Translations under genes and position numbers: made by a program | Assembly (NCBI GenBank): GCA_021816895.1 | Contig: JAKAWW010000001.1 | Location: 743,067 to 807,066 of the forward strand | DNA: 64,000 bases | Direction: 5' to 3' | DNA from: Microcaldota archaeon | GTDB lineage: Archaea; Micrarchaeota; Micrarchaeia; Micrarchaeales; Micrarchaeaceae | The notes under the pieces: model-generated | What the model was told of the DNA's origin: nothing | Databases searched by the model: none | The model's input: the letters and a program-made list of their open reading frames with translations, nothing else | Part shown: positions 37,447 to 37,645 of the stretch, in pieces | How positions within the stretch are numbered: position 1 is the stretch's first letter | Layout: every line of letters starts with the position of its first letter

Positions 37447-37645
37447 TCGAGCGGTGAATATGTCCCTGCTCCTTGCACACACCGCCTACCAAGTCACCCA
37501 AGCGGGGTCCTAGCGAGGCAGTATCCGTAAGGATGCTTTCGAGTTAGGGTTCTGTGAGGAGGGCTAAGGTATAACAAGGTATCCGTAGGGGAACCTGCGG
37601 ATAGATCACCTCGAAAATTAGTGTGCACATGGCATGATCCTGCAT

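Follow-up and report, generated by a model that had tools for sequence, protein, structure and literature searches.

The window, a stretch of 64,000 nucleotides from a Micrarchaeota genome assembled as one contig of 0.93 Mb, carries the single 16S gene of that genome. The covariance model of archaeal SSU rRNA (RF01959) matched the gene with 1134.6 bits over model positions 1-1478 (gathering threshold 50) and matched its third exon separately with 88.8 bits. Exon and intron limits were obtained by comparing the gene with that of a relative without 16S introns (G010) in blastn and nhmmer, giving the following arrangement:

34752-35802, plus strand: 16S exon 1; the RF01959 match starts at 34752, limits from blastn and nhmmer against G010, 3′ boundary uncertain by about 10 nt
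35803-36324, plus strand: 16S intron 1, near E. coli position 1092 (gap between exons)
35821-36306, plus strand: ORF of 161 aa in intron 1 (ORF list)
36325-36605, plus strand: 16S exon 2, from the comparison with G010; 3′ boundary approximate
36606-37444, plus strand: 16S intron 2, located in the loop of helix 43 and immediately upstream of the decoding-site strand (gap between exons)
36596-37441, plus strand: ORF, as read, nearly filling intron 2 (Pfam HTH_3, E 2.4e-8)
37446-37613, plus strand: 16S exon 3, with the 3′ side of helices 43 and 28, helix 44, helix 45 and the 3′ end

The 161-aa ORF of intron 1 gave no confident Pfam match and by eye resembles a divergent LAGLIDADG homing endonuclease. 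The ORF of intron 2 has its HTH_3 domain at the N-terminus, and its C-terminal part looks nuclease-like by eye (VDF...VIEMK). On the minus strand, two adjoining ORFs at 32953-34460 resemble proteasome-type (Ntn-hydrolase) subunits, also by eye. Exon 3, which was recovered as a separate partial Rfam match, is 92% identical to G010 over 169 nt and contains helix 44 complete. G530, C1054, A1492 and A1493 are present in the window 16S and in all members of the order in the alignment. Judged from its sequence, the gene probably encodes a functional 16S rRNA from which both introns would be spliced. It departs from a conserved character, the U·U opposition at 1406-1495, which is not a family criterion of RF01959 and is replaced here by C-G.

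The decoding site was numbered after E. coli rrsH, which was included in the 16S alignment. Positions 37471-37493 of the window read CCTTGCACACACCGCC-TAC-C-A-A-G and positions 37564-37575 read CT-AA-G-G-T-A-TAAC; in RNA letters, the two strands of this type are CACACCGCCUACC and AAGGUAUAAC. On the 5′ strand, U1404, A1405, C1406, C1407, A1408, A1409 and G1410 fall at 37487, 37488, 37489, 37490, 37491, 37492 and 37493, respectively. On the 3′ strand, C1490, U1491, A1492, A1493 and G1494 fall at 37564 to 37568 in that order, followed by G1495 at 37569, U1496 at 37570, A1497 at 37571 and U1498 at 37572. Changed and kept bases are thereby arranged as follows:

37487-37489, plus strand: changed 5′ strand, U1404, A1405 and C1406 (canonical C, G and U), from the sequence and rrsH numbering
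37490-37493, plus strand: kept 5′ side of the A-site loop, C1407, A1408, A1409 and G1410, from the sequence and alignment
37566-37568, plus strand: kept sensing bases A1492, A1493 and G1494, from the sequence and alignment
37569-37571, plus strand: changed 3′ strand, G1495, U1496 and A1497 (canonical U, C and G), from the sequence and covariation

Position 37569 pairs with 37489, 37570 with 37488 and 37571 with 37487, so that the U-A, A-U and C-G pairs that the first-pass annotation had assigned by hand to 1404-1497, 1405-1496 and 1406-1495 were confirmed letter by letter, with the same numbers in the rrsH alignment. The C1407-G1494 pair is unchanged, as are A1408, A1492, A1493 and U1498, the four bases already described as kept. 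The annotation was also right that A1409-U1491 and G1410-C1490 are paired, but this is the usual archaeal state and lies outside the change.

Both strands were then joined for 145 different archaeal genomes. The 1404-1497 pair was C-G in 65 genomes and U-A in 80, and the 1405-1496 pair was G-C in 120 and A-U in 25; both were Watson-Crick throughout, with not a single unpaired case among the 145. At 1406-1495 we found U·U in 63 genomes, C-G in 81 and G-C in one, and no other combination. C1407, G1494, A1492 and A1493 were kept in every genome, and so was A1408 apart from a few outgroup archaea that have G. The pattern was lost when the 3′ partner was shifted by one to three bases. This result, the identical numbers obtained with E. 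coli in the alignment, and the invariant or nearly invariant flanks CACACCGCC, CA, AAG and UAACAAGG, which fix the register, make it extremely improbable that the bases are misaligned and do not correspond to 1404-1406 and 1495-1497; the alignment shift raised as a concern in the first-pass annotation did not occur.

The state of 1406-1495 followed taxonomy closely. In the window's family, the pair was C-G in 50 of 51 genomes and G-C in the remaining one, and in the sister family it was C-G in 31 of 44 and U·U in 13. All 50 genomes outside the order had U·U (31/31 in the rest of the class and 19/19 among the other archaea sampled). An order-wide survey of the 3′ strand in 117 genomes gave G1495 in about 100, U1495 in 15 and C1495 in two, one of which (G150) has a truncated 5′ strand and is predicted to carry G1406. 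The lone complete G1406-C1495 pair belongs to G024, a closed contig of 0.81 Mb, whose 16S (locus L058) is very divergent and has U1400 alongside the reversed pair. C1400, which stacks beneath the P-site wobble base, is replaced by U in several members of the order and in a few other archaea (among L058, L065, L161, L170, L171, L184 and L187). Within the sister family, column 1495 alone, over the whole 16S, follows 1406 without exception. Elsewhere in the 16S, the order shows paired swaps from C-G to G-C at the highly conserved 341-348 and 1060-1197, and the single changes U5C, C972U and U1240A, with A935C in the window only. In the 530 loop, G530 is kept, G518 is found in nearly all members of the order and A527 in all; other archaea mostly have C518 and G527.

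When 84,980 GTDB species were scanned for CCUUGYACACACCGCC with three non-canonical bases directly after it, 37 matches were obtained. Eighteen were 16S genes with matching 3′ changes, all sharing the Micrarchaeales CCUACC/AAGGUAUAAC; 14 are titled Micrarchaeota, including NZ_CP060530, and four ‘Marsarchaeota’. The latter titles (L010, L025, L027 and L037) look wrong, the 16S genes being of Micrarchaeales type. The remaining matches were chance occurrences in other genes plus one proteobacterial 16S (L030, JAGWBS010000054.1), in which CCGCCAACC on the 5′ strand disagrees with the canonical AAGUCGUAAC on the 3′ strand, possibly a chimera or an error. NZ_CP060530 is the closed genome of the cultured Ca. 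Micrarchaeum (harzensis) A_DKE, for which PacBio and Illumina reads from a co-culture were combined (PMC8975820), and carries the same changed letters as the window. Two introns in one 16S gene could raise the suspicion of a sequencing or assembly error or of a pseudogene; this explanation is nevertheless left with a negligible probability by the recurrence of these letters in many independent assemblies as well as in the closed A_DKE genome, by perfect covariation and by the single 16S copy. The first-pass annotation had used the paired changes as an argument against error, and the argument held; the refuting cases that it had named did not arise, the changed letters being shared by independent genomes. 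A pseudogene was also rejected as a separate candidate, since pairing is intact, there is no second copy and relatives are conserved.

The number of origins was analysed on a 16S tree built without the decoding-site pair columns, in which the window's family was well supported. Supported branches forced at least three changes of the 1406-1495 state inside the order, the direction of which is not given by the counts. A single clade of all Watson-Crick species was marginally rejected by the AU test (p 0.047), and a single Watson-Crick clade in the sister family alone was not (p 0.11). Of 394 genomes sampled across the archaea, 14 had a non-U base at 1406, and 12 of these came from the order. The other two, G409 and G530, represent a different small-genome archaeal lineage and carry C1406-G1495 with matching neighbouring pairs. 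Because both are placed outside Micrarchaeota, together with G389, G349, G307 and G329, and seven genomes from their neighbourhood keep U1406, C-G arose independently in their lineage. The U·U opposition has been called universal in the three domains and in organelles (Hobbie and co-workers, 2011, PMC3101183); its order-wide and convergent break in archaeal 16S, presumably functional, is real.

The two neighbouring pairs have a different standing. U-A at 1404-1497 is also present in genomes that lack C-G at 1406-1495, and compensated U-A or A-U pairs occur at 1404-1497 or 1405-1496 in G371, G374, G312, G319, G314 and G317. A reading in which each of the three pairs is extraordinary was rejected, since compensated variation at 1404-1497 and 1405-1496 is seen in other archaea. 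The earlier description of a rewritten helix 44 stands for the letters, with only 1406-1495 being unusual, the other two swaps being compensated in unrelated archaea too. In H. volcanii, position 1404 is a modified cytidine (PMC2584109); a U at 1404 precludes that exact modification.

The A-site RNA of bacteria is in exchange with a register-shifted state that contains G1494-U1406, C1407-A1493 and A1408-A1492 (PMC12314911). In a nearest-neighbour estimate, the cost of this shift was 1.7 kcal/mol for the canonical site, about 6.0 kcal/mol for all C1406-G1495 versions and 7.1 kcal/mol for G-C, and U-A at 1404 and A-U at 1405 weakened the helix again; the estimate is a simple model that ignores protein, modification, Mg and tertiary contacts. 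The register-shifted state is accordingly predicted by this model to be rarer in ribosomes with a Watson-Crick 1406-1495 pair. In the proposed mechanism, a continuous Watson-Crick helix would cap the A-site loop, so that the shifted, ‘excited’ state would become much rarer, and A1492 and A1493 would still be able to flip out for codon reading. A co-change was sought in protein uS12. U·U and Watson-Crick species alike have QPHSG, or a sequence close to it, in the uS12 decoding loop. The next residue is Q in G157, G161 and most members of the window's family, all with C1406-G1495 (L275 and relatives); the remaining C-G species have L or I there, the other C-G clade having L. Since both Q and L occur in C-G species, there is no clear link between uS12 and 1406-1495. 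We find it doubtful that closing U1406·U1495 is an evolved change of ribosome mechanism, in which several small-genome archaeal lineages would independently have lost the register-shifted state and altered the speed or accuracy of tRNA selection.

Engineered M. smegmatis ribosomes with C1406-G1495 are functional and highly resistant to gentamicin and tobramycin, and retain sensitivity to neomycin and paromomycin (PMC3101183); in a paromomycin modelling paper, the MIC is reported to be almost unaffected by this double change (PMC3140962). On the strength of these recombinants, a C1406-G1495 ribosome would still translate, would resist 4,6-disubstituted aminoglycosides and would respond to 4,5-disubstituted ones with little change. 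The aminoglycoside implication drawn in the first-pass annotation is in this way retained in a selective form, sensitivity being lost to the 4,6- and not to the 4,5-compounds. That C1406-G1495 alone confers such resistance in M. smegmatis is also what would speak for selection of the pair by producers of 4,6-aminoglycosides in the habitat. We regard this origin as very improbable, given that the recombinants stay sensitive to neomycin and paromomycin, that the C-G state is order-wide and old, not patchy, and that the changes at 1404 and 1405 would need another reason.

All in all, these results point, with a probability of roughly 0.85, to a functional, single-copy 16S in which helix 44 above the A-site loop was rebuilt by compensatory changes, most likely for near-neutral reasons and not through antibiotic selection. 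The U1406·U1495 mismatch is replaced by a Watson-Crick pair (C-G in the window, G-C in one relative), and 1404-1497 drifts between C-G and U-A and 1405-1496 between G-C and A-U, most likely by near-neutral compensatory evolution in small-genome archaea. This reading fits best because the same 16S carries other paired swaps and single changes, the genomes are small, and, among the remaining 16S columns and the uS12 residues, none clearly tracks the pair. The repeated gains could, however, be equally compatible with selection, and the near-fixed state in the window's family could also weigh against near-neutrality. Both observations, the near fixation and the gains made within the order and again in another lineage, would fit an adaptive remodelling, in which the Watson-Crick pair was selected for A-site dynamics, fidelity or stability in small symbiotic, often acid-dwelling archaea. 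So would the predicted extra cost of 4 kcal/mol for the register-shifted state and the adjoining U-A and A-U changes, which lower helix stability again as if tuned. Yet U-A at 1404 occurs without C-G, so this softening does not simply follow the pair; neither another 16S column nor a clear uS12 change tracks the 1406-1495 state; and C-G ribosomes, when engineered into a mesophilic bacterium, are functional (PMC3101183). We consider adaptive remodelling unlikely on balance, and near-neutral compensation the preferred reading.

A mismatch described as universal in all three domains is absent from most of an archaeal order, including a cultivated member, and was lost again elsewhere. Close relatives that naturally carry U·U or C-G make its role testable outside engineered bacteria. 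The change also touches detection: primer 1492R has four mismatches to the window and A_DKE, including three that lie 4 to 6 bases from the primer's 3′ end, and primers 1391R/1406R have three, which means that such organisms will tend to escape full-length amplicon surveys.

We found no paper on the 1406-1495 pair in Micrarchaeota in the open-access literature, where C1406-G1495 in cellular ribosomes and its G1406-C1495 version appear to be unreported. The published exception to U·U is the C1406-G1495 of trypanosomatid mitochondria (PMC3101183), and Trypanosoma shares A1409-U1491 with the window as well. In contrast to those reduced organellar ribosomes, the pair is found here across an archaeal order with full-length 16S, together with changes at 1404-1497 and 1405-1496 and with G-C in one species; the order and the mitochondria reached the pair independently, not by common descent. 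The M. smegmatis construct carries the same C1406-G1495 pair and is viable and selectively resistant to 4,6-aminoglycosides, but it is laboratory-made and has bacterial helix 44 bases around the pair. Among archaea, the six genomes with compensated single swaps resemble the order in those swaps, yet keep U1406·U1495. The canonical archaeal helix 44 (CCGUCA / AAGUCGUAAC), found in the other sampled families of the phylum, has the same helix, A-site loop and kept bases as the window and differs in its U·U at 1406-1495 and, usually, in the C-G and G-C pairs above it.
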